The notes below the pieces were generated by a model. The model ran no database searches and was not told the origin of the DNA. It saw nothing but the letters and a program-made list of their open reading frames with translations. DNA of 64,000 bases. It comes from Pararcticibacter amylolyticus. GTDB lineage: Bacteria > Bacteroidota > Bacteroidia > Sphingobacteriales > Sphingobacteriaceae. The translations under genes were made by a program, and so were the position numbers. Where the stretch lies: assembly GCF_003130405.1 (NCBI RefSeq), contig NZ_QEAS01000007.1:157536-221535 (forward strand), given 5' to 3'. Shown here one piece after another: positions 27,936 to 54,538 of the stretch (position 1 is its first letter; every line of letters begins with the position of its first letter).

Positions 27936-27957
27936 CCTGCCGCTCCATTACGGCAGG
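27936..27957 (-). promoter_or_regulatory. Leader hairpin before the tra operon
   Basis: CCTGCCG/CGGCAGG arms with an 8-nt loop lie in the expected 5' untranslated region, 16 bp before the first ATG. No T tract follows on the minus strand, so translational control is more likely than termination. Function is inference. Confidence 0.5.
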
Positions 27958-27968
27958 CTTGACGATGA

Positions 27969-28014
27969 CAAAGTTTAGGAACCTGCAAAAACCTTTATCT
28001 CTAGTAGCTATAAA
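27969..28014 (-). promoter_or_regulatory. Promoter of the tra operon: dyad plus -7 box
   Basis: Imperfect 21-bp dyad (27994-28014, TTTATCT-CTAGTAG-CTATAAA, 16 of 20 positions paired), then exactly 17 nt, then AAACTTTG (27969-27976), a weak -7 box with the first T missing. There is no TTTG -33 box; the dyad covers that place. Same layout at 54185-54230 and 54251-54296. Confidence 0.7.
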
Positions 28015-28055
28015 TAAATAATAAGCCACAGATTTACAATACTATACGGCTTTTA

Positions 28056-28916
28056 CTATTCGGGCATGGAAACACTTTTATCGATGTATTCCATCAGCAT
28101 TTCCTGCATCGAATCCAGGTATTTGAGCTTGCTGAGCCGTTTGCGGTTCTTGATCTCGCGCAAACGGTTGGCGGGTATACCGATTTCCAGTCCAAAGGCT
28201 TCTTCCAGCCAGCGAAAAATCTCCGTTAACCCGGCCTTGCCATCGTTCAGCTGTTTGGTCAGGTAGAGCGCATAACCCAATTCGACCAAGTTGATCGAAT
28301 CGCCCGTCCATCGAAAAGTTTTTAGTGAAGCTCCTGCAGAAACAGCTAGAACCGGAGCCGGTCGATCCAGCTCCTTTAATTGTTCCAGGATAAATTCCTG
28401 TAATAGCTCGTAGGCGATAAACTTTGCAAATAGATAATCCCCAGCCGTAGAAAAGCCGGGATCGAGTTCCGGTACTTCGGGGATGAAGACCGGCTGTACC
28501 TCTGCGCCGCGCAGGAAAAGGATCTCATCCATTTCGGTAAAACCTGACCGGTAATACCCGTAGTGAAAAGCATGTTGCTTGAAAAAGCGGGATATGAATT
28601 TAAGTTCCTCTAGCCAGTAATCGCGGAGCATTTGTTCTGTACCTGACGGTTTGCCGTTCATCAAGCCAAACCAACAGGCCAGGAATATTTTTTGCGCATA
28701 GTATTCGGGCTTTTCAAATTTGAAAAAATAGATCTCATCAAATTTGTCTTTGAAGGCCATCGCTGTTTTTTCACTTCGGGCAAAGGCCAGGAACTCGGAG
28801 ATCAGCGACATGGCCTGGTTAAATTTTTCCACCAGGGTCAGCCCGTCATTAGCGGTAATGGATCTTACTTCCGCACATAATTCACGAAAGGCAACTTTAA
28901 GGGTTTTCTTCCTCAT
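28056..28916 (-). CDS. rteC: RteC-family ICE regulator
   Basis: 286 residues matching RteC, which in CTnDOT promotes excision-gene expression. Visible blocks are FHYGYYRSGFTEMDEILFLRG near 120 and FRWTGDSINLVELGYALYLTKQLN near 200, followed by the basic EIKNRKRLSKLKYLD region with likely DNA-binding function. It is leftward and upstream of the tra operon. It may be the activator acting through the CTAGTAG dyads, but this is untested. Confidence 0.8.
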   Translation of the reverse strand: MRKKTLKVAFRELCAEVRSITANDGLTLVEKFNQAMSLISEFLAFARSEKTAMAFKDKFDEIYFFKFEKPEYYAQKIFLACWFGLMNGKPSGTEQMLRDYWLEELKFISRFFKQHAFHYGYYRSGFTEMDEILFLRGAEVQPVFIPEVPELDPGFSTAGDYLFAKFIAYELLQEFILEQLKELDRPAPVLAVSAGASLKTFRWTGDSINLVELGYALYLTKQLNDGKAGLTEIFRWLEEAFGLEIGIPANRLREIKNRKRLSKLKYLDSMQEMLMEYIDKSVSMPE

Positions 28917-29209
28917 ATAGGTATGATTAAATGAACCCGTACGGCACCTGTTTACTGGTATCTACTTGCACACCGCACGGAAAACGTACACTTTTTTCAT
29001 AGGCATTCTCATTTTAAAAAAATCACTATTGGAGCAGATCACAACTTATGCGAATGCCCCAAATGTGCGCCTCTTCAAGAAAAATCATCTACGCAAAACC
29101 ACTATTTCTGCTACGCAAAAGCATCCGTAAATACAAAAACGGCCCTCCGCATTCCGGAAAAGCCGCTTTAAAACAAAATAAAAAAACGATAAGTATCAGA
29201 CGCCCTCGG
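28917..29209. promoter_or_regulatory. rteC upstream region with direct repeats
   Basis: Two exact copies of CTACGCAAAA (29089-29098, 29111-29120) start 22 bp apart, i.e. two helical turns, and suggest binding sites for a regulator on one face of the DNA. No gene is supported here. Confidence 0.4.
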
Positions 29210-30139
29210 TCAGGGCATCTCCAATTTGGCCATCAGTTGCTGTCGGGTCGAAACTTCTGCTTTTTCGTGGATAAACTGAATGTGCTTACCCAAAGTACCG
29301 ATGGAAATACAGAGCATATCGGCGATCTCCGCCCGCGAATAACCCTGGCGAATCAGGCGCACCACTTCGAGTTCGCGTTCGGTAAACCGGTACAATAAGA
29401 TATTCCGCTCAAAAGCCTGTGAGAAAGGCACCTTGTTTTGCAATTCCAATAACCGTTCTTTATCCAAACGCTCCGCACGTATTGAGCGGGAAATGAAAAT
29501 AAAAGTGGTAAACAAAAAGCCCAGGTTGGTGACCAGAACTTCGACCCATTGTGTGACGTGCAGCCATGAAAAAACACTCATCAACACCCACGGTGCAACA
29601 GAGCAGTACACCAACATCATTTCCAGCTTCGTATTGTACTGGCCATCCTGTTTTTCTTCATCGAACATTCTACGGACCGCCACCAGAATTACCCATATTA
29701 AAACGATTGAATACAGAAACGGCACCGGCATTCCCCACGTAATCGCCTTTTCCAGATCAGCGGTCAGCGGATAAACGACCAGGAACGCGGTCACATAAGG
29801 TAACAATAAAAACAGCGGTACACCCACCAACGCATGCCAGCGTAGGGAGGAAACCCCAAATCCCTTGAAGAAAAAAAAGGGAAAATAAGAAGCCATTAAA
29901 AACCCGCCGCCATAGGCAATGATATTCTGCGTCATAACCGGCAGCCAGCGAATATTGGGATCGGGAAAAAAACCACCGGTCACATTATAGAAGATCAGCA
30001 AGGCCAGCAACACCAGATACCAGAACCGCGACTTGTCATCCGGCCAGGCCAAATAGTGCGTCACCTGATAAAAAAGAAAACAACATTCAATCACGACGAT
30101 CACTAACGTAACGCCGTGCATTTCTCCAAAAGCAAACAT
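29210..30139 (-). CDS. Membrane-bound LuxR-type regulator
   Basis: 309 residues. About seven transmembrane helices fill the first 220 residues (first at VTLVIVVIECCFLFY). The C-terminal 65 residues form a LuxR-type helix-turn-helix: FTERELEVVRLIRQGYSRAEIADMLCISIGTLGKHIQFIHEKA. This architecture is common in Sphingobacteriaceae and presumably senses a membrane signal. It starts 20 bp after the GNAT gene, so the two may be one unit. Confidence 0.8.
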   Translation of the reverse strand: MFAFGEMHGVTLVIVVIECCFLFYQVTHYLAWPDDKSRFWYLVLLALLIFYNVTGGFFPDPNIRWLPVMTQNIIAYGGGFLMASYFPFFFFKGFGVSSLRWHALVGVPLFLLLPYVTAFLVVYPLTADLEKAITWGMPVPFLYSIVLIWVILVAVRRMFDEEKQDGQYNTKLEMMLVYCSVAPWVLMSVFSWLHVTQWVEVLVTNLGFLFTTFIFISRSIRAERLDKERLLELQNKVPFSQAFERNILLYRFTERELEVVRLIRQGYSRAEIADMLCISIGTLGKHIQFIHEKAEVSTRQQLMAKLEMP

Positions 30140-30159
30140 ACAAGTAGATAGGTTTATGT

Positions 30160-30747
30160 TTACGGTTGAAGTTCAGTTGGCCGGTTAAGGAAATATAAAA
30201 GGTAGCCAAGATCGATCGTGCCATAAACCGAGAACCCCGAACGGATATACCAGGGCAGATTGCGCTCCGTAGAAGTTTCCAGCATCACGAATCGACCGGC
30301 TGCCTCGCTGATCTCGACCACTTTGTCCATCAATAACGTTCCCAATCCATTGCGCTGAAAAGCCGGATCAACCCCAATAAACCAAAGGTAGGCACTTTTG
30401 CCCGGCAACTGCATTGCTTTGATCTTACCCTCGCGCGACAGCACTTTCCCGATACCCATGATGCCTACGCAATTCCAGATCAGCGAAAGATCAAGCGTAA
30501 GAGAAGTAAAATCGGTTTTTTTAAGTTCAGGATAAAGGATCAACGCACAACCTTTGAAGTCTTCGGTAACCAGCACTTCACCATAACGATAACAAACCTC
30601 AAATGCATAGTCCATCAACCATTTGATCTTTTGCTTGCTGTCCTCTCCATTACCGGCGATGTATAAAACACTCAAGTTATCGGCAAATGCCCGCGACAAT
30701 ATTTCTGAAACCGCCGTCTTATCGGCTGGGTAAGCTTTTCTGATCAT
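30160..30747 (-). CDS. GNAT-family N-acetyltransferase
   Basis: 195 residues, starting MIRKAYPADKTAVSEILSRAF. Acetyl-CoA motif QRNGLGTLLMDKVVE near residue 132, preceded by the strand AYLWFIGVDPAF. Ends with SGFSVYGTIDLG. Substrate unknown. Likely paired with the LuxR regulator downstream. Confidence 0.8.
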   Translation of the reverse strand: MIRKAYPADKTAVSEILSRAFADNLSVLYIAGNGEDSKQKIKWLMDYAFEVCYRYGEVLVTEDFKGCALILYPELKKTDFTSLTLDLSLIWNCVGIMGIGKVLSREGKIKAMQLPGKSAYLWFIGVDPAFQRNGLGTLLMDKVVEISEAAGRFVMLETSTERNLPWYIRSGFSVYGTIDLGYLLYFLNRPTELQP

Positions 30748-30937
30748 TGGATATTTATCATAGGTAAATTATTAAAATCAAATTCTCTTGGAAGCGAAAA
30801 CTCAAAGCCAAGAAAGCGCCACCCGCACCGGTGACGCCTCTACTACTACTAACTATTAACTAATCTTATAAAGAACAAACGTGCTTAAGACCAAACCTTC
30901 ATTGCCATCTCATTTCTTACTTCACTTGTAATCGTTG

Positions 30938-32518
30938 TCAGTCGTTTTTTAGTCCACCTTTTAAATACTTGTTCCCCTTTGCAATGATTGGTATCGCCGA
31001 TTCTTGATAGATCGCAAGGCCATATCCCCGGAGGGCATCCATTGTATCCATCTGGTGCATTTTTGGCTGCATAGCTTTGCCATCGCCTTCTTTAAAATTA
31101 TTTTTATAAAACTGGTTAGCGCCACCCAAAATGGGTTTAACGGCAAGCAGTTCAGTGGTATGGTCTTTAAAAACCGGGGTAACCCGTTCCTGGGGCGCAC
31201 GTGATAGCATACCTGCAAACGTATTTTTCCGGTAAATGCCATTCTCAGACCAGTCGCGAAGCGAAAAGCCGGATAAAAATTGGTTACCGATCACCGTGTA
31301 GCGGCCATGATTGACCTCCGGAAAAAAGTCCACATAATCATTGTCATAAAACACGTTCTTTTTTACCAAAGTCCCCTGTGCCATCCAGTCGAGCCATAGG
31401 CCGACAAAAGCACCATGCACCCGGTTACCGGAAATCTCTATATCAATGGCACCATGAAACTTCATACCCGCCATTTCTGCCCCATAGAAATTGCGTCTTT
31501 TGTAGATGTCATGTATAACGTTGTTCAGTATCCGTGAATAAGCCGCTCCGAAACTGCCGCATATGCCCGCTGCACCACAATTATAGATCTTATTGTTCCG
31601 TACCAGGTGCGAGCCGATGTTCCCTTTATTCCATCCGCCAGCGATCACCCGAATAATCATTTCGTTATAAACCACCGACCCGTCTTTCGACATGTCCGCA
31701 GACCAGACATTTTGGCCCGAAGCCCGATCTTTTCCCAGAGTGATGCCTACGCATTTGCTGTCCGAGATCACATTGTCCTCGATCACCCAGCCCTTGCTCC
31801 AGTTCGTTCCGATCAAGCCAACTTGCTCTGCCGTGGGTGGCGCCCACTGCGTTGCGGCCTGGGATAAATGAAAACCCCGGACGGTAATGTAATTTACGCC
31901 TGTTTTTTGCGGATAAAAGCAAGCCGGGCGCACATTGATCTCCACCAAAGCATTATTGGGATTGGTGTTGCCGAAGTTGGCCTGTATGACCGTACTGTCA
32001 CCTGAATACCTGCAGCTCCACGAGTTTTCATCCCTGACGTTTAACCTTTCCTCCAGTGCTTTTCCGTTCAGGTATACTTCACCGGTATGCAGCTGCATTT
32101 CTTTCGGAAAGAACCAATCGCCAAAAATGATATCATTATATGGATTGTATTCGCCAAAAAATCGATCCGGTAATCGCTTTTCCCATACACCGTTACCAAG
32201 CGATGCCCAATCCCTAACTACTTCCGATCCTTTGATCTCCACCAGCTCTCCAGGTGCAGCCCGGAACGTGATCCGGTGGTCTGCATCCGTACCTGAAAAA
32301 GCTGGCGCAACCCATTCCCGGTAGGTTCCGGCGTGTACCGTCACGACATCGCCGGGCCGGGCAAGCGCCGCAGCGTGGTTAATCGTCAAGAACGGTGTAC
32401 TCTTCGTACCGGGATTGGCGTTGCTGCCATTTTTGGCGACATGGTATTCCGCTGCAATGAGCCTCGTGGCGCAAAGCATTACAGCTAATAGCGATAAAAG
32501 CTTTTTACTCATCATCAA
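30938..32518 (-). CDS. Secreted right-handed beta-helix protein (lyase/hydrolase-like)
   Basis: 526 residues with a signal peptide (…CATRLIAAEYHVAKNGSNANPGT; DUF1565-like opening) and parallel beta-helix repeats (GNKIYNCGAAGICGSFG, NVIHDIYKRRNF, ISGNRVHGAFVGLWLDWMA). Such proteins are polysaccharide lyases or glycosidases. It overlaps the GH2 gene start by 4 bp and is the last gene of the utilisation locus. Substrate not determined. Confidence 0.75.
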   Translation of the reverse strand: MMMSKKLLSLLAVMLCATRLIAAEYHVAKNGSNANPGTKSTPFLTINHAAALARPGDVVTVHAGTYREWVAPAFSGTDADHRITFRAAPGELVEIKGSEVVRDWASLGNGVWEKRLPDRFFGEYNPYNDIIFGDWFFPKEMQLHTGEVYLNGKALEERLNVRDENSWSCRYSGDSTVIQANFGNTNPNNALVEINVRPACFYPQKTGVNYITVRGFHLSQAATQWAPPTAEQVGLIGTNWSKGWVIEDNVISDSKCVGITLGKDRASGQNVWSADMSKDGSVVYNEMIIRVIAGGWNKGNIGSHLVRNNKIYNCGAAGICGSFGAAYSRILNNVIHDIYKRRNFYGAEMAGMKFHGAIDIEISGNRVHGAFVGLWLDWMAQGTLVKKNVFYDNDYVDFFPEVNHGRYTVIGNQFLSGFSLRDWSENGIYRKNTFAGMLSRAPQERVTPVFKDHTTELLAVKPILGGANQFYKNNFKEGDGKAMQPKMHQMDTMDALRGYGLAIYQESAIPIIAKGNKYLKGGLKND

Positions 32519-34851
32519 TGCTCCTGTATCGCTTTTTGAAACATCGCCTTTTCATTCTCTTTGATATTGGTGCTATACTTATCAAGGTAAGCTTTCGCTG
32601 CGGGTTTATAAGTGTTCCAATCCTGCTGATTGTACGTATGAATGACCTTAGCCCTTAAATAGATTTCCTCACCCGGCGAACCGAAATCTTTGATCTTGCT
32701 TTCTACTTCGTTCCAATTCGGTTTTGCGTCCGGTGTTGGTACATATGGCTGGATGACATCTGTAAAGATGGTATTCATGGCTTTCACATAGGCCGTGCGG
32801 TCCGTCTTTGCCCGTGCCAATAATGAAGCAAACCCTTTATCGCTTACCTTTTTCGTCATACCGTCGATAAAAACAATGTCTTCCACACTGTAAGGCGCTT
32901 TAAGCGTGGCGAGGTAATCATTGCCAAATCGCGCCTTACCGGCCAGGTCATTGGTCTGTCCCGCCAGCATCGTTAACCGTTTCAGGAAAGCCGCGTCGTG
33001 TTTACCATTGATATATTGCTGAATAGCATCGGCATATACCTGTGCCGGTTCAGTCAGGTCAGCATCTTTCGCGGTAACAACCGGCACATTGGTATTGGCA
33101 TCCGGGTTCAGTTGGCTGTGAATTTTTCGTAATTCCGAAAATGGCACCTTGACCACTTCCCGGTCATAGGTCATCAGACCATTTTGCTCGCCTTCCACAT
33201 CAAAAGGCTGGGTATAAATCGAACCCGATAAGCCTTCCTTTTTCAGCAGTTGTAAATGCTGGTTCATAATTCGGTATTTCCCGGCTAGGGCCGCAGGTTT
33301 TTCCTGGATGTAGCCCCAAGCCGAACCGGTCAGCCACTGATGATCAGGGATAAAAACACCGATCCCGCCAAACTCACCCACCACCTGTGCTTTTCCGGGC
33401 TGCTTGATCGGCATCATCGGATCAGGATAAGCATGCACATCCGTCATATCCGCAGACACATATGTATTTGGTGAAGGAGAACGCAGTTGTTCATTCACAT
33501 ATAACAACTCACCTGTATGACCATTGACAATACGCGAAGGATCTGTTTTCTTTACCCATTCGGTTAGCCGCTGCTGATCGTACTGGCCCCATTTTTCGTT
33601 GAACAGTACCCAGCAAATAATACTCGGGTTGTTATGCAGTTGCACCAGCTCTTCCGCTGCCTGCTTTTCAAACGCAGGTTTGGCACCTTCCGGTAAGCCC
33701 TGGTTCGGGTTCACAAAGTCTTGCCATACGAGCATACCCAGCTTATCCGCATAATAATACCAGCGGGCGGGCTCGATCTTAATATGCTTGCGGATGGTGT
33801 TAAAACCCATCGCTTTGATTGCTTCGATATCAAATTTCAGGGCGGCATCGGTCGGGGCGGTGTATAACCCGTCCGGCCAGAAGCCTTGGTCTAAAGTACC
33901 GAGGTTGAAATAGGGCTGATTATTGAGGGCAATACGGTCAACACCCTGCTCATCTTTCGTGATCGAGATCTTACGCATACCAAAATAGCTTTTAACTTCA
34001 TCCGAACCTAGCTTCACGTTCAGATCATACAGGTAAGGGTCGCTAACACTCCATAGGCGCATGTTGGTTATCGGGATAACGATATTGCTGTTGGTTTTTC
34101 CTTCGACGGTCTTTCCGGCAGCGGTCAAAGTTACAGCGGCGTTTAAAAGTGAATGCACAACAATATTTACCACCTTTTCATCAATATCCGGTGTAATGGT
34201 TAGTCGCTCCACGTAAATGTCGGGTACGCGCTCCAGCCATACGGTCTGCCAGATACCCGAAGTGGGCGTGTAATAAATGCTCTGAGGGTTCAATACCTGT
34301 TTACCATGCGGTCCATAACCCTGATCACTCGGGTCCCAGACTTTTACGACGATCTCATTCTCGCCGTTTTTTAGTAATGAGGTGATATCATAGGTAAACT
34401 CTGTATAACCGCCCGTATGTTTCCCGGCTTCCTTACCATTAATCAGCACTGTGGCCTCAAAATCTACCGCGCCGAAATGGAGCAGGGTTTTGCCTTTGCC
34501 ATTGTAGGTAAATGTTCTCTTGTACCACAGGTTTTCGTTGGGATGCAGTACTTTCCTAACGCCGGATAGCGCCGACTCAATGGGGTAGGGTACTAAAATC
34601 TGGCCTTGAAAATTAGCAGGCTGTGCGACATCTTTTTTGGTAATGGCATAGTTCCACAGCCCATTCAAGTTTTGCCAGTCCTTTCGTTTCAGTTGCGGGC
34701 GCGGGTATTCCGGCAACGCATTAGCCGGGGCTACTTCCTTTGTCCAACGGGTTTGAATAGGCAGAGGTTGTACTTTATATTGCTGGGCCGTTGCTAATAA
34801 TGGCATTACCGGCAAAACGGTTATTATTATTCTCTTAATAAACTCTTTCAT
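32515..34851 (-). CDS. Glycoside hydrolase family 2 protein
   Basis: 778 residues with a signal peptide. The jelly-roll, Ig-like and TIM-barrel order of GH2 is visible: LWYKRTFTYNGKG and VDFEATVLINGKEAG (N-terminal), TPTSGIWQTVWLE, then VLFNEKWGQYD (acid/base Glu, about 418) and VVGEFGGIGV (nucleophile Glu, about 492). The C-terminal domain is extra helical. Probably beta-galactosidase or beta-glucuronidase-like. Exported, acting in the periplasm or at the surface. Confidence 0.85.
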   Translation of the reverse strand: MKEFIKRIIITVLPVMPLLATAQQYKVQPLPIQTRWTKEVAPANALPEYPRPQLKRKDWQNLNGLWNYAITKKDVAQPANFQGQILVPYPIESALSGVRKVLHPNENLWYKRTFTYNGKGKTLLHFGAVDFEATVLINGKEAGKHTGGYTEFTYDITSLLKNGENEIVVKVWDPSDQGYGPHGKQVLNPQSIYYTPTSGIWQTVWLERVPDIYVERLTITPDIDEKVVNIVVHSLLNAAVTLTAAGKTVEGKTNSNIVIPITNMRLWSVSDPYLYDLNVKLGSDEVKSYFGMRKISITKDEQGVDRIALNNQPYFNLGTLDQGFWPDGLYTAPTDAALKFDIEAIKAMGFNTIRKHIKIEPARWYYYADKLGMLVWQDFVNPNQGLPEGAKPAFEKQAAEELVQLHNNPSIICWVLFNEKWGQYDQQRLTEWVKKTDPSRIVNGHTGELLYVNEQLRSPSPNTYVSADMTDVHAYPDPMMPIKQPGKAQVVGEFGGIGVFIPDHQWLTGSAWGYIQEKPAALAGKYRIMNQHLQLLKKEGLSGSIYTQPFDVEGEQNGLMTYDREVVKVPFSELRKIHSQLNPDANTNVPVVTAKDADLTEPAQVYADAIQQYINGKHDAAFLKRLTMLAGQTNDLAGKARFGNDYLATLKAPYSVEDIVFIDGMTKKVSDKGFASLLARAKTDRTAYVKAMNTIFTDVIQPYVPTPDAKPNWNEVESKIKDFGSPGEEIYLRAKVIHTYNQQDWNTYKPAAKAYLDKYSTNIKENEKAMFQKAIQEH

Positions 34852-35181
34852 AACGTAATTTCATTTGTGAATTTTTAATCACCAGCAGATCCAATTCCAG
34901 TTTGTGCTAAAAGTTATATTTGCTGCCAGCCAGAATTGTTTACTGCGGCTTATTTTATCAGGATTGTCAAAACAACATTTAAAAGCTTCACAATAAATGG
35001 CGCGACATCCCAATAATCAGTTTCTTGATTTGCCCCCCGGTATGCCCTTTGGGGCGTTGGAATAATAACCAAGATGTCCCGAATTTCGCCTTGATAGCCG
35101 TTCATAGCTGTCCAATCTGTTGAACCATAGGGGGCTTGGCGAACACCATCAAAACTGTGCACTATTTAATATCAAATTAGT
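34852..35181. other. 330-bp gap with a doubtful 70-codon ORF
   Basis: Contains a leftward 70-codon frame (34950-35162, GTG start, containing PYGSTDWTAMNGYQGEIRD) that could be the relic of a larger secreted-protein gene. No start signal or family supports a gene. The rest is A+T-rich with no recognisable feature. Confidence 0.3.
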
Positions 35182-36084: not shown

Positions 36085-36098
36085 AAAAAACTATTCAT

Positions 36099-38360: not shown

Positions 38361-38463
38361 TTGTATTTGGATTGTGTTTATTAATAAATTAGTAGAGGTA
38401 TTTTACATTTTATAGGTAATGAGATTATGCATTGAGTGTACGCTCTGAATTTGATTTTTTAAA

Positions 38464-39897: not shown

Positions 39898-39927
39898 ATA
39901 ATTTCCTTTTACGAGTTTATGAATGGA

Positions 39928-42696: not shown

Positions 42697-42758
42697 ATTA
42701 TCTATCTGAAAGTTCTATTATCTCTCCAGATCAAATACAATCTGGAGAGAAGTAATAA

Positions 42759-44354: not shown

Positions 44355-44414
44355 TACTTCTTGAATTAAATGGTTAAAAAAAGGTTAGAAGTTTCTACGA
44401 TATAGCTCTAATTC

Positions 44415-47400
44415 TCAAAGGCCTAATTGAAAACCAAATACTATAGTTCTCAACGGCCCTAAATTGCTATTTCCGCTTTCTGGATCTATCCCGTTATATT
44501 TTGTAATTGTAAATAGGTTCTGAGCATTGGCGAATAATCTTAGATCCTTAATTCTTGCTTTCTCTAACAAATTGGGCACTATAGAATAAGACAATCCAAG
44601 GTTTTTTAACCTAATAAAAGATGCATCAGAAATACTTGCATCAGAAGATAAGATGTTGCTATATCCATCTGCTACGCCACCACCTCCGGTAACACTGACT
44701 TTTTGTAGACTCGCAATTTGATTGGAATTAGTCCAGTAATTTCCGCTAATTGAAGCCAGCTGATTAAATAATCTTCCTGGCCTTCTCGAAGCTAAAGCGA
44801 AGGTATTATTGGGAAGTCGTTGCTTGGCGAATGAAAATAATATATCTAATTGGAACCCTCTGTAAGTGAAACTATTTTTAAAACCTCCTAAAAACTTTGG
44901 TAAAAGATCAATATTCTGAGTTCGGTCTTTTGAAAAATCAGGTGTGGAAGTCAGATTACCCGCAGCGTTGTAAAACTGATATAAACCGGTTTGTGAGTTT
45001 ACTCCTGCATATTGAAAAGCGTTTAATGAATATGTTGATTTACCAATTGCAAATGTGGTCGCATATGATGATTTTTCAATATCTGGGAAACTGATCAATT
45101 TGTTTCTGTTAAAAGAGATGTTGAAATTGCTTGACCACGAAAAATTACCCTCTTTTATGTTAATTGATCGCAAGTTGAATTCCCAGCCAGAATTTTGAAC
45201 CGTTGCTGGCAAATTTGCGTTAATGAAATTTCCACCCGTAATAATTGGTAAAACGTAACTTAAAAGCTGATTAGATGATCGGTTTATGTAATAAGTTACA
45301 TCGAAAAGAATCCTGTCTTTAAACACACCAAGATTCAATCCTGATGAAAATTTTCGAGTTTCTTCCCATTGTAAATTTGGATTCGGTAATCCCTCAGGCG
45401 CTAACCCTACCTGTCCTTGATAATTCACTTCGTAATTATTTGGACTATACAAATTCAGATATTTGTAATCGCCAATTTGATCATTACCTGTGGTTCCATA
45501 ACTGGCTTTAACTTTACCAAAACTTAGCCAAGGCAAGCCAGACTTAACCAGCTTTTCTTCTGAGAAAATCCACGCAGCTCCTGTACCCCAAAAATTGTGA
45601 AAAAGATTATTCGCTCCGAATCTTGAACTTCCATCCCGACGGGCACTTAAATTAATTAGATATTTGTTGTCCCAGTTATAGGCTATCCTTGAAAAAACAC
45701 CATTGTATTTATACTCGGAAATATCACTAGTAGACCTGCTAAGATTTCCTGCTGCGGACATACTTTCCAGCAGCAAATCATTTGCGTAATTACTTGCATT
45801 GATCGCTTGCTGATTTGCATATTTTGTCTGGAAGGTAGTACCTAATTGGACATCTAATACTCCTTTTGAAAAATTACTTGTATATCGCAATTGCGGCTCA
45901 ACCTGCCATCCATAGATACTAGAATTATTAAAGAACGAGGAAGGTTTGTTACCAGCCCTAACTGCGTCCGGAGACATTGCTTTTAACGGGCTTGTCTGGA
46001 ACTCGTTTAATTGAAGATTTGAATATCCAAAAAAAGATGAAAAATTCAGGCCATCTAAAATTTCATAACTCAAATTAAGACTAGTAATTAGATTCGATGT
46101 CTTACCATTATTTTTTGCGTACTTGTTTGATGCTATGGGGTTAGTCCAGGACGAGTTACCAGACGGTCCGGGTTGCCAGTTCAATGTTCCATCGGGATTC
46201 AAAAGTGCTGGTGCTACAGGAGATAGTTGTAAAGCTAATACCCCTAAATCAACAATCGGCGCCTCATTGAAATCTAACTGGTACTGTGACGAAAGAGTAG
46301 CTTTAAATTTCCGGTTTTTGCTCATATGATTCAGGTTGAAACTTAAAGAGCCTTTCCGATCACTAGCATCGGTGTAGTTAAATATAGTTGACTGACGGTG
46401 AAATGCGGCCCCAACGCGATAGACGTCAAATTCATTTCCACCCTCTAGCGAGGCAGAAAAGTCACTATACTGTGCTGTTCCTAGCAGTTCTCTTTGCCAG
46501 TCTGTATATCTGTTACTATCCCAAACACCATTCAAATCATACGCTGAAGCCCATTGGGGAGAACTTGTGAGTAAACCATCTGTTTTAAAATAAGCATCTT
46601 TTCTCATTTGTAGATATTGATCCCTATTCATTAATTGTTGAAATCTCCCAGCCTTCATGACACCCTGCTGTAAGTTCAAATTTACCTTTGAATCACCTGG
46701 TTTCCCTTTTTTTGTGGTAATCAATATAACGCCGTTTGAACCTCTAGAACCATATATTGCAGTTGCATCGGCATCCTTCAAAACACTAATGCTTTCTATA
46801 TCCTGAGGATTAAGAAAGTTTAACGGGTTTCCCATAGTTGTCGGAAAAATCCCGGCAAGATTTGGATCTTTGCCACCAGAAAATCCGCTACCCGTGACAT
46901 TAGTTGGGAGCTGCGATGTAAAAGGCATGCCATCAATTACAAATAAAGGATCTACTCCTTTTGTCATGCTATTTATCCCTTGTATCTGAATTCTTATGCC
47001 TGAATTTGCATATCCGCTCGCCTGATTAACTGCAATTCCCGCAACCTCGCCCTGCAAAGCTAGTAATGGATTAACAATAGGCTTGTTCTCTATTTGCTTA
47101 GTCGTGATACTGCTGATATTTCCAGTGCTTAACCTTTGTGAGGTTCTCCCGTAGGCTTGTACCAACACCTCATCCAGCTTTGATGTCGCAAGGTTAAGCT
47201 TGACCGTGCCGATATTCGACGTCGCTTTCAATTCTCTTTCATCATAGCCAATAAATGTAATGACAATCGTCGCACCTTCATCTACATTCTTAATCGTGAA
47301 ATTTCCCCTCTCATCGGTGATAGTAGCGCCTTTGCCATCTTTTACCCTTATCGTCGCTCCCGGTACAGGTTGACCTTTTTCATCTAAAACCTTACCGGAC

Positions 47401-47807
47401 ACATCAATACGTTGCAATTGAGCAATGATTTTTTCAAGGATATTTCGACTTTCTTTTTGCTTTACAGCAATAGTATTCCCCTCAATCTTGTAAGTAAGGT
47501 TTAACCCTTTCAAAATCTGGTCGAGCGCTTCTTCGATGGAAGCTTCTTTGAGTACAACAGATACCTTCTGATTTTTTGGAAAATCTTTGCCATCAGAGAA
47601 CACATCATACCCGCTTTGCTTGCGAATCTCCTTTAAAACGGAAGTCAGTGGGATATTCCGGACGTTCAGCGTGATCTTCTGAGCAAGCCCGGCAGCGCTG
47701 ACCTGCATCAGGCAAGCTATCAATAGCACTGTGGTCAGTCGCATGATAAGCCATATTTTGTGGTATAGCCGCTTAGGCCTACCAATTACTTGAATTAATT
47801 GATACAT
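44415..47807 (-). CDS. SusC/RagA-family TonB-dependent transporter
   Basis: About 1130 residues from ATG 47807 (MYQLIQVIGRPKRLYHKIW); the upstream in-frame GTG start is less likely. Signal peptide, then a secretin/TonB short N-terminal (STN) domain, a carboxypeptidase-like domain (GKVLDEKGQPVPGATIRVKDG), the plug (VNQASGYANSGIRIQIQGINS, SISVLKDADATAIYGSRG) and a beta-barrel ending …GFQLGL. The STN domain indicates signalling to the FecR/sigma pair upstream. Substrate unknown. Confidence 0.93.
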   Translation of the reverse strand: MYQLIQVIGRPKRLYHKIWLIMRLTTVLLIACLMQVSAAGLAQKITLNVRNIPLTSVLKEIRKQSGYDVFSDGKDFPKNQKVSVVLKEASIEEALDQILKGLNLTYKIEGNTIAVKQKESRNILEKIIAQLQRIDVSGKVLDEKGQPVPGATIRVKDGKGATITDERGNFTIKNVDEGATIVITFIGYDERELKATSNIGTVKLNLATSKLDEVLVQAYGRTSQRLSTGNISSITTKQIENKPIVNPLLALQGEVAGIAVNQASGYANSGIRIQIQGINSMTKGVDPLFVIDGMPFTSQLPTNVTGSGFSGGKDPNLAGIFPTTMGNPLNFLNPQDIESISVLKDADATAIYGSRGSNGVILITTKKGKPGDSKVNLNLQQGVMKAGRFQQLMNRDQYLQMRKDAYFKTDGLLTSSPQWASAYDLNGVWDSNRYTDWQRELLGTAQYSDFSASLEGGNEFDVYRVGAAFHRQSTIFNYTDASDRKGSLSFNLNHMSKNRKFKATLSSQYQLDFNEAPIVDLGVLALQLSPVAPALLNPDGTLNWQPGPSGNSSWTNPIASNKYAKNNGKTSNLITSLNLSYEILDGLNFSSFFGYSNLQLNEFQTSPLKAMSPDAVRAGNKPSSFFNNSSIYGWQVEPQLRYTSNFSKGVLDVQLGTTFQTKYANQQAINASNYANDLLLESMSAAGNLSRSTSDISEYKYNGVFSRIAYNWDNKYLINLSARRDGSSRFGANNLFHNFWGTGAAWIFSEEKLVKSGLPWLSFGKVKASYGTTGNDQIGDYKYLNLYSPNNYEVNYQGQVGLAPEGLPNPNLQWEETRKFSSGLNLGVFKDRILFDVTYYINRSSNQLLSYVLPIITGGNFINANLPATVQNSGWEFNLRSINIKEGNFSWSSNFNISFNRNKLISFPDIEKSSYATTFAIGKSTYSLNAFQYAGVNSQTGLYQFYNAAGNLTSTPDFSKDRTQNIDLLPKFLGGFKNSFTYRGFQLDILFSFAKQRLPNNTFALASRRPGRLFNQLASISGNYWTNSNQIASLQKVSVTGGGGVADGYSNILSSDASISDASFIRLKNLGLSYSIVPNLLEKARIKDLRLFANAQNLFTITKYNGIDPESGNSNLGPLRTIVFGFQLGL

Positions 47808-47907
47808 TTGTTTAGTGTTTGGTTCAAGCAGTATCCTCACTCTTTCCACGGAACAGGACACTGCGGATTAACAGTTTAAATATTTAATATTTGGCGGTGC
47901 CAAACCA

Positions 47908-47943
47908 CAACCAGTTCCTTCCTGGAGCTGGTTGCTTTTTTTT
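47908..47943 (+). terminator. Rightward terminator in the susC leader
   Basis: CAACCAGTTCC and GGAGCTGGTTG pair (one G-U) around a TTCCT loop, followed by eight T. It points rightward, opposite to every gene here, so it would end an RNA antisense to the 5' end of susC, as for known PUL antisense sRNAs. A possible -7 box TACATTTG lies at 47803-47810. Confidence 0.55.
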
Positions 47944-48039
47944 AATTTTCCTTTCGTAAAGTTTTATCCATCCAGTCCTGTGGTTTAAATTGTGAACGAT
48001 TCAGTTAATTGTTGTTTTAACATAGGATGATCAATATGA

Positions 48040-49218
48040 TTACTTAAACACATATACTTTTTTACCCTCGATCCTGAACCTGACAAGACCTGAATTTTCG
48101 ATCAGTTTCAAGACAGACGACAATTTACTGCTCCTGGAGATCCAGCCCCAGGCCTCGATATTTTCGGGTACAGATTTATCATAAACCACCTCGATATCAT
48201 ACCAGCGGGCGATCTTACGCATAGCCGTCCGGAAATCCACCTCGTCCAGGTTAAACTCACCATCTTTCCAGTCCACCACCTTATCAACATCCGTCTTAAC
48301 TACTTTAATACCAGCTCCGTCATTCAAGGCCTGCTGCCCCGGTTTAATCATGTGCGCTCCGGACGAACTACTTACCTTCACAGAGCCTTCAAGCAGCGAA
48401 GTGGCTACCGCAGCCTCATCAGTGTAGGCGTTCACATTGAAATGCGTACCCAGAACCTCTACTTTCTGCGTAGCGGTCTCCACAACAAAAGGATGTAATT
48501 TATCTTTAGCAATTTCGAAATAACCTTCCCCGGTCAGCTTGACCGAACGGTTGCCGTTTTTAATCAATGACGCAGAATAGGTCAGGCTGGAAGCGGCATT
48601 TAGCCAAGCCTGCGACCCATCCGGCAACCGCACCTGATAAGTTTCCCCATTGGCCGTAGTCAGTGTATTAATCTTATCTTCGCCACCGTCTCCGGTCACC
48701 TGATAAAGTAATTGCCCGTTCTTAGATTTGCTGATCTTAACCCCGGCCTCCCTGGCCAGCTGTCCATTAACCGCATCCGTCAGCAGTATCTTTTTGCCAT
48801 TGGCCAAGGTCAATGTCGCACCTACTTTACCGGGCGCCACGTCATTGACTGCCAGCGTTTCTATATTATGCTTATTATGCCTGTTTACATATATCAAAGT
48901 ACCGATACCCATCACCGCGGCGATAGATGCGGCAACGGCGATCTTCGGCCAAAGGCGGATCTTTTTCGGTTCCGGTGAAACCTGCACCGGTTCAGACTGG
49001 AATATATTAGCGATCATCCGGCGGTCGGCACCGGGTAGCAAATAACGATCTGCGGTACCCTGCTCCGAGGCATCCTGCTGATAGGCTTCCTGCATCAGCT
49101 CTTTGAACCGCTCGTCATAAGCACCATTATTCAGCATCGTGTAGAACTCGCTCAGCTCATCTGGATTAGCTAAGTTTTTCCATAACTGATGAAATAAAAA
49201 ATCGAAACGCTCTTTCAT
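48040..49218 (-). CDS. FecR-family anti-sigma factor
   Basis: 392 residues: a cytoplasmic N-terminal anti-sigma part, a transmembrane helix (about 88-108, WPKIAVAASIAAVMGIGTLIYV), a periplasmic FecR domain (ETYQVRLPDGSQAWLNAASSLTYSA) and a C-terminal domain like DUF4974 (FRTAMRKIARWYDIEVVYD). It relays the SusC STN signal to the sigma factor encoded upstream. Confidence 0.92.
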   Translation of the reverse strand: MKERFDFLFHQLWKNLANPDELSEFYTMLNNGAYDERFKELMQEAYQQDASEQGTADRYLLPGADRRMIANIFQSEPVQVSPEPKKIRLWPKIAVAASIAAVMGIGTLIYVNRHNKHNIETLAVNDVAPGKVGATLTLANGKKILLTDAVNGQLAREAGVKISKSKNGQLLYQVTGDGGEDKINTLTTANGETYQVRLPDGSQAWLNAASSLTYSASLIKNGNRSVKLTGEGYFEIAKDKLHPFVVETATQKVEVLGTHFNVNAYTDEAAVATSLLEGSVKVSSSSGAHMIKPGQQALNDGAGIKVVKTDVDKVVDWKDGEFNLDEVDFRTAMRKIARWYDIEVVYDKSVPENIEAWGWISRSSKLSSVLKLIENSGLVRFRIEGKKVYVFK

Positions 49219-49308
49219 AAATCAACGGGGCTAATGCCCTTTAAAAGGATAGAGTATTTTCGACGGAAAAAACGAGTAATGAAAATGAAAAAATTATTAA
49301 AAAAATTA

Positions 49309-49911
49309 TTACCGCCACATTAAGGGCGTAGTCAACAGTATCATCAGACCCGCACTGATGCCTTTTTTGGCAATATCGTTTTGAATAAACTGCACAGCCA
49401 GCTGCACGTGTTTTCTCACCGTAGTCACCGATAATCCTAATTGAATGGCGATCTCGTCGTATTTTAACCGGTCATAACGGGACATGGTGTAGACCCGTCG
49501 CTGCTGTTCAGGTAGTTTGGCAACCGCTTGTGCGATGATCTCCCGATATTCCTCGGCCGGATTGTCCATCAGGTCTAACGCCGCCTCGTCTATGACATAC
49601 TGTTCGAAACTGCCCTGCAAAGATTTTTCAGCGGCGATCTTTTTTAGTGCCGTAAAAGTACCGTTCCTACAAATGGCGAACAGGTATTTGCCAAAATGGT
49701 CGATTTGCGCAAGTTTTTCACGCCTAAGCCAGATGCTAACGAAAGCATCCTGCACAATTTCTTCAGCCAGTTCCCGTGAACCGGTAAGCTTATACACAAA
49801 TCTGGCAAGTGCGGTATAATAATGATAGAACAACTCGGTAAACGCACGTTCGCTTCCTTCTGCTGCACGAAGCAGCAGTTCAGTTTCGAGGCTATGAGGT
49901 TTAACGGCCAT
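49309..49911 (-). CDS. ECF RNA polymerase sigma factor (FecI-like)
   Basis: 200 residues. Region 2 (FTELFYHYYTALARFVYKLTGSRELAEEIVQDAFVSIW) and region 4 (AVAKLPEQQRRVYTMSRYDRLKYDEIAIQLGLSVTTVRKHVQLA) are intact. Pairs with the FecR downstream and presumably drives the susC operon. There is a 90-bp gap to fecR. Confidence 0.92.
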   Translation of the reverse strand: MAVKPHSLETELLLRAAEGSERAFTELFYHYYTALARFVYKLTGSRELAEEIVQDAFVSIWLRREKLAQIDHFGKYLFAICRNGTFTALKKIAAEKSLQGSFEQYVIDEAALDLMDNPAEEYREIIAQAVAKLPEQQRRVYTMSRYDRLKYDEIAIQLGLSVTTVRKHVQLAVQFIQNDIAKKGISAGLMILLTTPLMWR

Positions 49912-50027
49912 TTTTGAATCTATCAGTTATTCTAAAGTTACAAAAAATCGACCTCAATATTAGTTATTATTTGCAATATATCACGTATTTATACGTAGTA
50001 TCGACCTAATTCATTAGGTGAATACGA
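49912..50027. promoter_or_regulatory. Gap between cargo and mob modules with a small dyad
   Basis: The ECF sigma promoter region. A 14-bp dyad ACGTAT-TT-ATACGT lies at 49983-49996, a possible operator. There is a TAACTTTA sequence near the sigma start. No gene is supported. Confidence 0.35.
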
Positions 50028-52145
50028 CTACATCGACATCGGCTTCACCTGACTCTGTTCGATCTTTTTTTCAGAGGTTTTCCGCTCTTTTGGCTTTTGG
50101 GCTGACCTCCTTAGCTGCGATTGCGACTTACGGTTTTTGTCTTGTTCTGTTTGCCTGGGCGCAGACTTTTCGTCGGGTTCGTCCAAATCATTCATCGTTA
50201 CAGGCCTAAGTTTCCTGAGTTCAGCACACACCAGTTCAGCAACCTCTTTTTTTATCCTACTGTAGTTTTCTTCTACAACTTCAGCTGTGACATTTGCAAT
50301 CCGTGGAATGGGTTTATAATTTTCTTCTTCACGCTTTAAGGCATCGTGGTCGTTCTGTATAGCCGAATGAAACATCTTTAGCGCGATTTTTTGCTCTGGA
50401 TTGTCCGCAACAATACCAACAAACTCGCCCGATGACAAAGACGAGATCTTACTGGCCGGTATAGCATTATCCATTTGAGTAGATTTTGAAATAGAAGTAT
50501 CGCTGCTGCTGATGCTATGGCTTTCTTTATCCTGCATGATCTTACCAAAAGTCTCGCTCAATGTTTTGGCCGTATCACCTGTTACCTGACCACTGATCAC
50601 ATTGCCCACAATGCCGGTTATTACTTCCGCTTGTTCTTTCCCATAATCCTTGCGTAACTGGCTGAAATCCTGTACGGCTAAGGTCGTGGCTACCTTATTG
50701 CTTCTTGCTGTTGCGATCAGGCTATCCATGTGGTTAAAATAGATGGTCGGGAACTCATCAAAAACCAAACTGCTTTTTTGCATCCCTTTCCGGTTGACCA
50801 GCTTGATCATTCTGGAAATATAAAGCGACAGCACCGCACCATAGGTTTGCAGCTTCTGCGGATTATTACCGACACAAATGATCTTCGGTGATTTCGGATT
50901 GTTGACATCCAGTGTAAAATCGTTGCCGCTCAATACGTAGTACAACGACGGTGATGCCAGTCTTGCCAGCCCAATCTTGGCAGAAGCAATCTGTCCTTCC
51001 AATTGCGCCTGTGCATTGTTTTGCCAGGCTGAAATAAACGGGTTGATCAGTACGCGTATCTGCTCCTGCATTTCCAGCAAAGCAAACAGCTGGTCGTAAT
51101 TAACCTGCATTAGTTCAATTACATGTGGGAGCGTACAAAACCGTCCATCCTCATGTTTTCTTAAATACCATATAATGGACGTCAGGAAATTGATCGGTGA
51201 CTCTACGAAAAAATCGCCCTGCTTTTTAATCCAGTCCCTATTTAAGCCCATCATGATCGTTCGGCTGGCTTCCGTAGCATCGGTCAGGTCTTCCATGCCC
51301 TGCGGATCGAGCGGATTACAACGGTGGGTTCTGTTCAGATCATCAAAATTGATCAGGTAAAAAGAAGGCTTAATTTTATAATTAGCTTGGTATTGCAATA
51401 GCTTGTTGTAGGCGATGACCGACAGATCATCGAATTTGAAGTCATATAAAAACATGGTGAACCCTTTTTTGATATGTTGGTCAATGATGTGCCGGATCAC
51501 AAAATAGGATTTACCCGCGCCGGGTGTTCCAGAAACCAATAATCCCCTGAAAGGATTGATAATGTTAATCCAGCTGCCCCGTATCTTACTTTTAAGCCTA
51601 TATTTCGCTGGCAGGTTGACGGAGTATTCATTTTCCAGCAACCGCTCTTCTTGGGGGAACGTTTCGTTATCGGTGTTAAAAACATCTTTATTCAAGCCGT
51701 TTTTAATCAGCCTCGATAGTCGTGTACCGCCAGCGAGGATAAGTAGGTAGCCTGTTACGGATAATCCGATATAACAGGCTGCGAGAATGCTGTTGCCTCC
51801 AGGCATGTAAAACAAGAGGGGACTAATCAGGTATACCAGTAGCCCGCAAAGCAGGTAGGCAGCTATGCTATTCTTTTGGATGTGCTCATCTTTACGGCCT
51901 TTAGCACCAATAAGAGATATGATTAGCATTAATAACACGGCCAGCTTTGCCGGCCAAATGCCCTTAAACAGACCGGTCTTTGCAATGTTCGCAATAAGCT
52001 TATCGGTAATTTTAGCTGTCCAATGCCATTCGTAGAATGCCTGATAGCATGTCTTATAAAAATGAATGGCCAGTATCATCAAGCTAAGCAACCTAGTGAA
52101 ATCTATGATTTTACGCAAGCCTTGCATATCTTCCCCTGTATTCAT
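50028..52145 (-). CDS. mobC: Type IV coupling protein MobC (TraG/VirD4-like)
   Basis: 705 residues. Several transmembrane helices lie in the first 145 residues. Walker A is SGTPGAGKS near 208, Walker B SSLVFDEFPTIYF near 458, and LDPQ/NPLDPQGMEDLTDA motifs are also present. The C-terminus is rich in K, R, Q and S. Links the relaxosome to the pore. It is last in the mob operon, 10 bp after mobB. Confidence 0.92.
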   Translation of the reverse strand: MNTGEDMQGLRKIIDFTRLLSLMILAIHFYKTCYQAFYEWHWTAKITDKLIANIAKTGLFKGIWPAKLAVLLMLIISLIGAKGRKDEHIQKNSIAAYLLCGLLVYLISPLLFYMPGGNSILAACYIGLSVTGYLLILAGGTRLSRLIKNGLNKDVFNTDNETFPQEERLLENEYSVNLPAKYRLKSKIRGSWINIINPFRGLLVSGTPGAGKSYFVIRHIIDQHIKKGFTMFLYDFKFDDLSVIAYNKLLQYQANYKIKPSFYLINFDDLNRTHRCNPLDPQGMEDLTDATEASRTIMMGLNRDWIKKQGDFFVESPINFLTSIIWYLRKHEDGRFCTLPHVIELMQVNYDQLFALLEMQEQIRVLINPFISAWQNNAQAQLEGQIASAKIGLARLASPSLYYVLSGNDFTLDVNNPKSPKIICVGNNPQKLQTYGAVLSLYISRMIKLVNRKGMQKSSLVFDEFPTIYFNHMDSLIATARSNKVATTLAVQDFSQLRKDYGKEQAEVITGIVGNVISGQVTGDTAKTLSETFGKIMQDKESHSISSSDTSISKSTQMDNAIPASKISSLSSGEFVGIVADNPEQKIALKMFHSAIQNDHDALKREEENYKPIPRIANVTAEVVEENYSRIKKEVAELVCAELRKLRPVTMNDLDEPDEKSAPRQTEQDKNRKSQSQLRRSAQKPKERKTSEKKIEQSQVKPMSM

Positions 52146-52154
52146 AGTAATATT

Positions 52155-53420
52155 TTATAATGTTAATTGCTGTTGTTGTTTCTTCTTTTTCTTTCGCTTA
52201 GGTACGCCCGTGCCATAATCCGGCTTGGTCTGCGCTAACGCCATCTCCAAAAAGTTGACCGAGGGTTGATCTCTTAACGTCCTATTATTTGATGTCTCAA
52301 ATTGTTTTTCCATACGTTTTGCAGCTCTCGGTTGTGCTGTTCGAGTTTCGCCTAAGCTTCGTGTTTGTGCCGAAAAACGCTCGGACAGTCCTTTTGCGCT
52401 GTAAGTTTTGCCAAGATCAGAGCCATTGAAAATGCAATGGTTCTTGTGATCGACAAAGGTCACCCCGAAAACCTGGCCTTGTTCATTTTGCCTGAACATC
52501 ACAGCAATGCCATGTTTTCTTGCTTCTACTTCAAACCTGCTTTGAGCAATGCTTCTAAAGGATTGGAAAATACGATCAATACGAAGTTTCAAATCTTCTT
52601 TATGCGGTTTACGCCTCCTGTTGTTCTTTTCGAACTGCTGCTCCAGGTTACGAAGTGTGGGTTTGGTATATAAGGAACTGGCTTTAACCGGCACCCCAAT
52701 AGGTCTGCCATCCTCATTTAAGATCGAATACATCAAACCTTTTTTGACAAACATGGCCGTATGTTCTTCACCACGGAGCGCCACCACATTAAAACACTTC
52801 AAGGCCGCATTTAATTCCGCGAGTGAGGTGAAAGCATAATCGCGCGTTACCGCCGTAATTACATTGCTTATCGCCCGTTTAGTCGGTAGGCGGCCATATT
52901 TCGCTTTTTCAAGGTTCGCTTTTTTAATGACTGGAAATTGTTTAAAGTCTTTACTTTCGGCTTTAACTAGCTTATAATCTTCTTCAATGGCTTTTCTTGC
53001 TGGCTCTGATAGCTTGCGCCCAATATCATGCAAGTCGATGCGTTCCCCCTGCGGAGTGATATTGGTGGTAACTATGTGCATGTGGCTGTGTGCTGCATCT
53101 TCATGCCGGTAAACTAAGAAAGGCTGGTCGCCAAAACCTATCTTATCCATATAGGTAGCTGCGATTTGTTGTAGCTTAAAGTTGCTGAGTGTCTCACTGG
53201 AATGAAAGTTCAGGGAGATATGCAAGGCATTGGTTTTGACATTTGGTTTTAGCTGTAACAGGTGATTAAAGCGGTTGAGCTTCTGATTAAAATTTATTTG
53301 GTCGATATCGCCCGCAAAACCGCTGGCCAGTATTAAACTGGCTTCCCCTTCGATAACCTTATTTTCGTTATAATGAAGCATCGCGCGTAGGCTTTTTCCA
53401 ATACTTATTTTTGTAACCAT
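52155..53420 (-). CDS. mobB: Relaxase MobB
   Basis: 421 residues. The start MVTKISIGKSLRAMLHYNENKV carries the likely catalytic Tyr (in HYNENK), and the metal-binding triad appears as HEDAAHSHMHIV (about 106-117). Nicks oriT and pilots the DNA. The C-terminus is basic with poly-Lys and poly-Gln runs. It overlaps mobA by 16 bp. Confidence 0.92.
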   Translation of the reverse strand: MVTKISIGKSLRAMLHYNENKVIEGEASLILASGFAGDIDQINFNQKLNRFNHLLQLKPNVKTNALHISLNFHSSETLSNFKLQQIAATYMDKIGFGDQPFLVYRHEDAAHSHMHIVTTNITPQGERIDLHDIGRKLSEPARKAIEEDYKLVKAESKDFKQFPVIKKANLEKAKYGRLPTKRAISNVITAVTRDYAFTSLAELNAALKCFNVVALRGEEHTAMFVKKGLMYSILNEDGRPIGVPVKASSLYTKPTLRNLEQQFEKNNRRRKPHKEDLKLRIDRIFQSFRSIAQSRFEVEARKHGIAVMFRQNEQGQVFGVTFVDHKNHCIFNGSDLGKTYSAKGLSERFSAQTRSLGETRTAQPRAAKRMEKQFETSNNRTLRDQPSVNFLEMALAQTKPDYGTGVPKRKKKKKQQQQLTL

Positions 53421-53812
53421 TTTTCTGCGAGTTGGGCCACGATGGCCAGTAAGTGATCTACTTTGGCGTCTACGTGTTTATACAGGTCTGCAACTTGTAA
53501 AGCATAATAGCTGCGATTGCTTTCTGCTTTTGCACCATTGAAACTTCTTGTGACTTGATTAATATTGATACCAATGGCTTTCAGTTCCTTTCTGATCATC
53601 GCCAATTGTTCCATAGTTGGATTCATAGTGACGTCCTCCTGGTAAAATTTGATCTTCTGATTGGTCAGTATTTTTCGGCAGACATCAGCAATCGAAGGAC
53701 TGCGGCTTTCTTTCCTGATCTTATCGAGCTTATTGAACAGCTTTTCAGAAACACGGATAATGATATTATGGCTCAACAAATCCTCATTGTTTGGCAATTT
53801 CTTTCTTGACAT
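53405..53812 (-). CDS. mobA: Relaxosome accessory protein MobA
   Basis: 135 residues with a ribbon-helix-helix-like N-terminus (NIIIRVSEKLFNKLDKIRKESR) and the C-terminal IRKELKAIGININQVTRSFNG motif of MobC/MobA-type relaxosome proteins. Probably binds oriT next to the gene. First gene of the mob operon. Confidence 0.8.
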   Translation of the reverse strand: MSRKKLPNNEDLLSHNIIIRVSEKLFNKLDKIRKESRSPSIADVCRKILTNQKIKFYQEDVTMNPTMEQLAMIRKELKAIGININQVTRSFNGAKAESNRSYYALQVADLYKHVDAKVDHLLAIVAQLAEKWLQK

Positions 53813-53997
53813 GGGATATACTTTATGAAAGCTTTAGCACCACGAGTTCCGAGTGATGCCCCGGCCTGAAGGACGGCAAAGATTTTTTTGCGCATGCAAA
53901 AATACATCTTTGCCTAGACCACGCGGGCTACAAACGAAGCACCTTACCGGAGTGCTAAAAAACTTCGGTTAACAGATTTTTAATGTTTTGGTCAGAA
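53813..53997. other. Probable oriT region
   Basis: Directly upstream of mobA. A strong nested hairpin (53876-53913, outer arms GCAAAGAT/ATCTTTGC, inner arms TTTTTGC/GCAAAAA with GCAT loop) is followed by AGCAC…GTGCT (53938-53956). The position and repeats fit an origin of transfer; the nick site is not assigned. Confidence 0.55.
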
Positions 53998-54162
53998 TTA
54001 AATAAGCGCTGTTACCTCCAGTTTAGCGACCGCTAAAACAATGGCATTTCGTAATCTTAATTTGATCGTTCGCCTGGGTGAAACGTTCACTTTTTTTAAC
54101 TTCAGGTAAGGCGTGCCGTGGAATTTCCTGCCTTTCACTTTCGGGTTCTTATTTGTATTCAT
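53998..54162 (-). CDS. Small basic 54-residue protein
   Basis: MNTNKNPKVKGRKFHGTPYL…, strongly basic (about one in four residues is K or R). Its -7 box CAACTTTG (54185-54192) and dyad (54210-54230) have the same spacing as the tra promoter, which is the best argument that it is real. Possible DNA-binding, excision-factor or regulator protein; no family recognised. Confidence 0.5.
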   Translation of the reverse strand: MNTNKNPKVKGRKFHGTPYLKLKKVNVSPRRTIKLRLRNAIVLAVAKLEVTALI

Positions 54163-54184
54163 AGAAATTGCTTTTTGTCCGCCT

Positions 54185-54230
54185 CAAAGTTGGGAAGGCT
54201 AAAAAACTGTTTATCTCTAGTAGTGATAAA
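54185..54230 (-). promoter_or_regulatory. Dyad promoter of the 54-codon ORF
   Basis: The dyad TTTATCT-CTAGTAG-TGATAAA (54210-54230, 18 of 20 positions paired), then 17 nt, then CAACTTTG (54185-54192) as -7 box on the minus strand. Leader of about 15 nt to the ATG at 54162. Confidence 0.65.
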
Positions 54231-54250
54231 TAAAATAAGCGGATAATATA

Positions 54251-54296
54251 TTTTACTCTAGTAGAGTAAAAAAAACTTGTACATAAGCCAAGTTTG
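54251..54296 (+). promoter_or_regulatory. Dyad promoter of the recombinase operon
   Basis: A perfect 21-bp dyad at 54251-54271 (TTTTACTCTA-G-TAGAGTAAAA), then 17 nt, then CAAGTTTG (54289-54296) as -7 box on the plus strand. The ATG of the first gene is at 54316. The two divergent promoters share the 54185-54296 region, so one regulator could control both sides. Confidence 0.7.
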
Positions 54297-54528: not shown

Positions 54529-54538
54529 TTTATTGCCT

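Follow-up and report, generated by a model that had tools for sequence, protein, structure and literature searches.

Genes and operons of the element

The window, i.e. the whole stretch of 64,000 nucleotides of Pararcticibacter amylolyticus DNA that was analysed, carries a CTnDOT-like conjugative element with genes for TraE, F, G, J and M, for MobC, relaxase and coupling protein, for a large serine recombinase, and for RteC. The rteC gene is the only one in the host genome, and its product matches Pfam PF09357 over residues 63-280 with 206.9 bits (cut-off 25.3). The genes and the candidate oriT referred to below are:

28056..28916, minus strand: rteC, the proposed activator (Pfam PF09357, E 4.1e-61)
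27440..27919, minus strand: gene that opens the tra operon (159 aa), directly after rteC in relatives
53998..54162, minus strand: 54-aa ORF that heads the mob operon; relatives have a homologue, likewise behind the dyad (dyad B below)
53875..53914, minus strand: candidate oriT, an inverted repeat between the 54-aa ORF and mobC
53405..53812, minus strand: MobC-like relaxase accessory protein
52155..53420, minus strand: MobA/VirD2-type relaxase
50028..52145, minus strand: coupling protein (T4SS-DNA_transf, YWFCY)
54316..54528, plus strand: 70-aa ORF ahead of the recombinase gene
54515..56095, plus strand: large serine recombinase (resolvase and recombinase domains)

The mob operon comprises the 54-aa ORF, the candidate oriT, and the genes for MobC, relaxase and coupling protein. 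The arms of the candidate oriT repeat are GGCAAAGAT...ATCTTTGCC (also given as GGCAAAGATGTATTTTTGCA/TGCGCAAAAAAATCTTTGCC), and the repeat is kept in loci L015, L020, L021 and L062. No rteA-rteB two-component genes were found among the portion of window proteins scanned.

The recombinase gene and the 3' end of a tRNA-His gene (56060-56134) overlap, which suggests integration at tRNA-His; a search of the window for another copy of this tRNA end, which would be an att repeat, found none. A group II intron with a reverse transcriptase/maturase (24821-26641) is inserted early in the tra operon, ahead of TraE, and in locus L022 TraE is split by a maturase-like insertion. Furthermore, a membrane protein with a C-terminal LuxR/GerE domain and a GNAT acetyltransferase are encoded at 29210-30747, an accessory pair that is conserved in many of these ICEs.

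Three promoters with a common dyad

Three promoters of the element share a dyad sequence, predicted to be an RteC operator, that is followed by a -7-like box:

28014-27994, minus strand: dyad A, TTTATAGCTACTAGAGATAAA, tra promoter, predicted RteC operator
27976-27969, minus strand: box A, AAACTTTG, -7-like, tra promoter, 17 nt past dyad A
54230-54210, minus strand: dyad B, TTTATCACTACTAGAGATAAA, mob promoter, predicted RteC operator
54192-54185, minus strand: box B, CAACTTTG, -7-like, mob promoter, 17 nt past dyad B
54251-54271, plus strand: dyad C, TTTTACTCTAGTAGAGTAAAA, recombinase promoter, predicted RteC operator
54289-54296, plus strand: box C, CAAGTTTG, -7-like, recombinase promoter, 17 nt past dyad C

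The first-pass annotation had placed the three dyads at these positions, each 17 nt from its box, and direct reading of the sequence bore this out. Its assignment of the genes served was right for the tra and recombinase operons, but the gene behind dyad B, taken for a lone 54-codon ORF, is the first of the mob operon. The dyads thus head the tra, mob and recombinase operons, i.e. the modules for the mating pore, for DNA processing and for excision. Dyad A separates rteC from the 159-aa first tra gene and is about 26 kb away from dyads B and C, which adjoin the mob and recombinase genes.

The consensus of the 21-bp dyad is TTTATCnCTASTAGnGATAAA. The core CTAGTAG is common by itself (seven occurrences in the window, 2.8 expected), and NAnnTTTG has a background frequency of 0.0017 per position; the combination CTASTAG-N24-NAnnTTTG has three matches in the whole 6.3-Mb host genome, and these are A, B and C only.

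Promoters of Bacteroidota have a -7 box TAnnTTTG and a -33 box TTTG (PMC7366714). Boxes A, B and C retain AnnTTTG and are missing the first T. This had been read as a -7 box that lost its first T, of which the absence stands but not the local loss, for T is the first base in one of 28 tabulated sites and in none of 29 RteC lineages. The -33 TTTG is missing at all three promoters and a half-site of the dyad occupies its place, as had been claimed; the spacer of A does contain a TTTG, 9 nt ahead of the box and off the -33 position.

Hairpins in the tra and mob leaders

A further conserved feature was found in the tra leader, just past the promoter box:

27936..27957, minus strand: hairpin with covarying pairs in the leader of the tra mRNA, AAUG in the loop

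The stem has 9 bp, eight of which show compensatory changes (13 elements), and the AAU(G) of the loop is conserved, including in the tra leaders of relatives. No Rfam family matched this hairpin. In the mob leaders of L020, L054 and L021, a short hairpin (e.g. GGCTAT...ATAGCC-ATG) immediately precedes the start codon of the 54-aa ORF; the window has no such hairpin.

Structural models of RteC

AlphaFold models of RteC consist of an N-terminal helical bundle and a helical C-terminal domain (pLDDT 90), and the proposed recognition helix lies within the confidently modelled C-terminal domain. A search of PDB sequences with an RteC profile gave no credible match. The best match of the C-terminal domain in a fold search had a Z of 3.9, with several HTH proteins among the weak matches; fold searches with the whole model likewise returned weak matches only. 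These searches confirmed no known DNA-binding fold, and their matches show neither relation nor novelty.

Conservation in related elements

The closest RteC-bearing relatives of the host are species of Pedobacter and Mucilaginibacter, and related elements of these genera have the dyad, with its spacing and box, at corresponding places. For example, Pedobacter ureilyticus (G104, locus L024) carries a syntenic element with all three sites at 17-nt spacing, the recombinase site having the variant box CAATATTG. The dyad was found between rteC and tra in eight of nine close relatives, the ninth locus having a decayed appearance.

At the loci inspected, some of which had first been found by a pattern with the 17-nt spacing, the box stood at exactly 17 nt for 24 of 27 dyads when the spacing was not imposed; the other three are a dyad with the variant box GAATATTG at 17 nt, a remnant beside an insertion, and an unrelated site in the window. 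Since part of this tally derives from the pattern, the subsets found through RteC and through the small proteins are given separately. One set of loci was fetched by RteC similarity alone, without the motif, and yielded 13 dyads, namely those between rteC and tra in the eight relatives just mentioned and further ones ahead of mob and recombinase genes, all 13 with a box at 17 nt. A second set of promoters was reached through protein matches to the 54- and 70-aa ORFs: the recombinase promoters of G384, G372, G343, G274 and a second locus of G104 (C23), and also the mob promoter of G384, have a dyad exactly 17 nt before NAnn[T/C/A]TTG, where some dyads carry a core mismatch and the mismatched cores were read by eye. 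The boxes of recombinase promoters are often weaker (CAATATTG, GAATATTG, CATCCTTG, GATACTTG).

A reversed-pattern control gave about as many matches as the true pattern, and match counts were not used for significance; the true-pattern matches fall in ICE promoters, often paired on one contig. The case for conservation is built on the location of the sites and on the promoters found by protein, not on pattern counts. Lack of the dyad and its spacing in related elements had been named beforehand as what would speak against the proposed common control; both were found in related ICEs before tra, mob and recombinase genes.

Two recombinase promoters have at least two RteC-type dyads in tandem, in L209 (G274) near 1763-1985 and in L208 (G343) at 2222-2295. 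CTAGTAG operators are also present at mob/recombinase genes of L058/L209 (G274) and L012 (G235), where the sole RteC is divergent and encoded elsewhere; these loci are possibly remnants, or mobilisable elements dependent on the RteC of a helper.

RteC lineages and their operators across the phylum

A total of 138 rteC genes in 90 lineages, from the family and the phylum, were surveyed, and the 260 nt past each gene were examined. An odd-centred palindrome lies just downstream of divergent rteC genes, those of the CTnDOT-like type included. Its centre is 38 nt before NAnnTTTG in 11 of the 90 lineages (0.27 expected) and 27 nt before it in four (0.37 expected); no other distance was found in more than three lineages. 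Even-centred palindromes gave no distance peak in the 90 lineages, and under the criteria used about two thirds of the lineages are without a recognisable palindrome. The 38-nt group includes rteC genes of Sphingobacteriaceae that adjoin tra, as well as rteC genes of the CTnDOT-like type with xis2c-like ORFs behind them. The sequence of the palindrome varies by lineage (ACACCTAAcTTAGGTGT, GGGTCcGACCC, TTCGGTAgTACCGAA, ACCCAAcTTGGGT, CCCGAcTCGGG), with constant geometry. The lineage of the window has TCnCTAsTAGnGA with its centre at 27 nt, i.e. at 38 less one helical turn.

The right half-site of the 37/38 class, whose palindromes are centred 37-38 nt before the box, repeats 11 bp downstream (3.35 of 6 matches, compared with 0.95-2.0 at other shifts), and this third half-site, 21-26 nt before the box, stands at the place of the proximal half of the window dyad. 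All 20 lineages in the 37/38 class lack a -33 TTTG, whereas one of nine in the 27 class has it.

Similarity of RteC proteins correlates with similarity of their operators (Mantel r 0.466, reached in 0 of 2000 permutations, 29 lineages), which is no proof of contact, since lineages inherit both by descent. The proposed recognition helix pairs with the operator as follows: PANR with CTAsTAG, PSRR/PYRR with GGTAsTACC, and YYHK with CCTAAsTTAGG. The first-pass annotation had listed RteC as a candidate that nothing linked to the motif. The candidacy stands, but a link is now suggested by comparison of sequences, in that putative lineage-specific operators of fixed geometry adjoin divergent rteC genes.

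G036 and G057, both of the 37/38 type, repeat their operator: G036 has it at tra and at an xis2c-like/mob operon, G057 at tra and mob. The two CTnDOT-like elements examined (G410, G592) have one operator each. With respect to autoregulation, no operator-like palindrome was found upstream of rteC at the offsets tested. In L091 and L085, just downstream of rteC, a terminator-like inverted repeat at the gene's end repeats the operator sequence.

Proposed regulation by RteC

The observations comprise the sequence, geometry, conservation and genome-wide specificity of the dyads, and the co-variation of operators with RteC lineages. On these sequence comparisons we hold it very likely that the dyad is the operator of RteC, and that RteC is a class II-like activator which couples excision, mobilisation and transfer. 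An RteC dimer would probably bind the dyad centred 27 nt upstream of NAnnTTTG, at about -39 from the expected start. The promoter-proximal half of the dyad would lie over the missing -33 element, where RteC could recruit the housekeeping sigma factor and RNA polymerase to the weak -7 box; class II activation is proposed because the -33 element and the first T are absent and the proximal half of the operator covers -33. The tra, mob and recombinase operons share operator and spacing, so that a rise in RteC would switch on the genes for excision, relaxosome and mating pore together. Binding by RteC, its dimerisation and stoichiometry, the activation itself and a signal upstream of RteC are inferred parts of this scheme. 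Counting against it are the many rteC lineages without a recognisable palindrome, and the dyad-bearing mob/recombinase genes of G274 and G235, which have no close RteC in their vicinity.

A common regulator that couples excision with transfer had been proposed from the window alone, and the conserved dyad and spacing at tra, mob and recombinase genes support it. The sign of its action had been left as activator or repressor, of which activation is favoured, on the CTnDOT precedent and the anatomy of the promoters. For repression, in which RteC or another factor on the dyads would keep the three promoters off until relieved, it can be said that the dyad covers the -33 region, which is a usual place of repression as well. 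However, RteC promoters are without a -33 element and their boxes almost never have the first T, so that they look weak unaided, and RteC of CTnDOT has been described as an activator (PMC1976400, PMC10865816); we regard repression as improbable.

Still less probable is that the dyads are bound by another protein of the element, i.e. the membrane LuxR-type protein (29210-30139), whose gene adjoins rteC in several elements, or the 54- or 70-aa protein, both of which are encoded directly behind dyads. For none of the three was a co-variation with the operators like that of RteC observed. The two small proteins had been suggested as binders in the first pass, which is not supported: in G057, of the 37 type, a similar small ORF at the place of the 54-aa ORF stands behind a quite different operator, and G289, which has dyads, gave no match to the 70-aa protein. 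The LuxR-type protein was rejected as the dyad factor because three dyad-bearing genomes (G274, G384, G289) have no homologue.

That the dyads serve a host regulator, recombination, replication or RNA structure unrelated to RteC is very improbable: B and C do adjoin mob and recombinase genes, but A is 26 kb away, the combination of dyad and box is absent elsewhere in the genome, the phasing to the promoter boxes is fixed on either strand, and divergent rteC genes from other families of the phylum have the same geometry next to them.

Returning to activation by RteC, we consider a phylum-wide extension fairly likely, in which RteC proteins would be ICE activators that follow an operator code: a lineage-specific half-site over -33, a box [A/C/G]AnnTTTG, and two helically phased registers (38/27) that share the proximal half-site. 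The lineage of the window would then represent a single-tier regulon of tra, mob and recombinase operons.

Comparison with known systems

In class II activation, e.g. by CRP at class II promoters or by LuxR-type activators, the operator overlaps the upstream promoter element, with fixed phase and a weak core promoter. The system proposed here differs in its Bacteroidota sigma factor with a -7 TAnnTTTG, and in RteC itself, which is all-helical in the model and without a clear relative in PDB. With SetCD of SXT and AcaCD of IncC, too, a single activator encoded by the element serves the operons for excision and transfer; their proteins and promoters are different from those of the RteC system.

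In CTnDOT, genes for excision and transfer are under the control of RteC (PMC1976400), which has been described as an activator of the excision operon (PMC10865816). The RteC proteins of CTnDOT/CTnERL (Bacteroides) resemble the one in the window in that they belong to PF09357, are borne on an ICE and control excision and transfer; similarly, rteC genes of the CTnDOT-like type have a palindrome behind them, 38 nt ahead of the box that serves an xis2c-like gene. Unlike in CTnDOT, the predicted operator of the present element stands directly at the tra, mob and recombinase promoters and nowhere else in the genome, and the element has a large serine recombinase instead of a tyrosine integrase. Compared with the common 38 class, the operator of the window is centred 11 bp nearer to the box. 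RteC of CTnDOT reportedly acts on the excision operon, whose products are said to drive tra and mob (Park and Salyers 2011); a cascade of this type, in which RteC has its operator at one xis2c/xis2d/exc operon and the products of that operon act on tra and mob, is not matched here.

Implications

RteC and its role were already known, and a search of the openly readable literature found no general RteC operator. The proposed direct three-operon regulon, the operator of this lineage and the two-register rule were likewise not found there. Conjugative elements of Bacteroidota are vehicles for the spread of resistance and metabolic genes, and RteC is one of their well-studied regulators. Given the motif and its constant spacing, RteC regulons can be predicted from sequence; the pattern of operators and RteC proteins suggests a specificity code, and a single activator could link excision directly with transfer.
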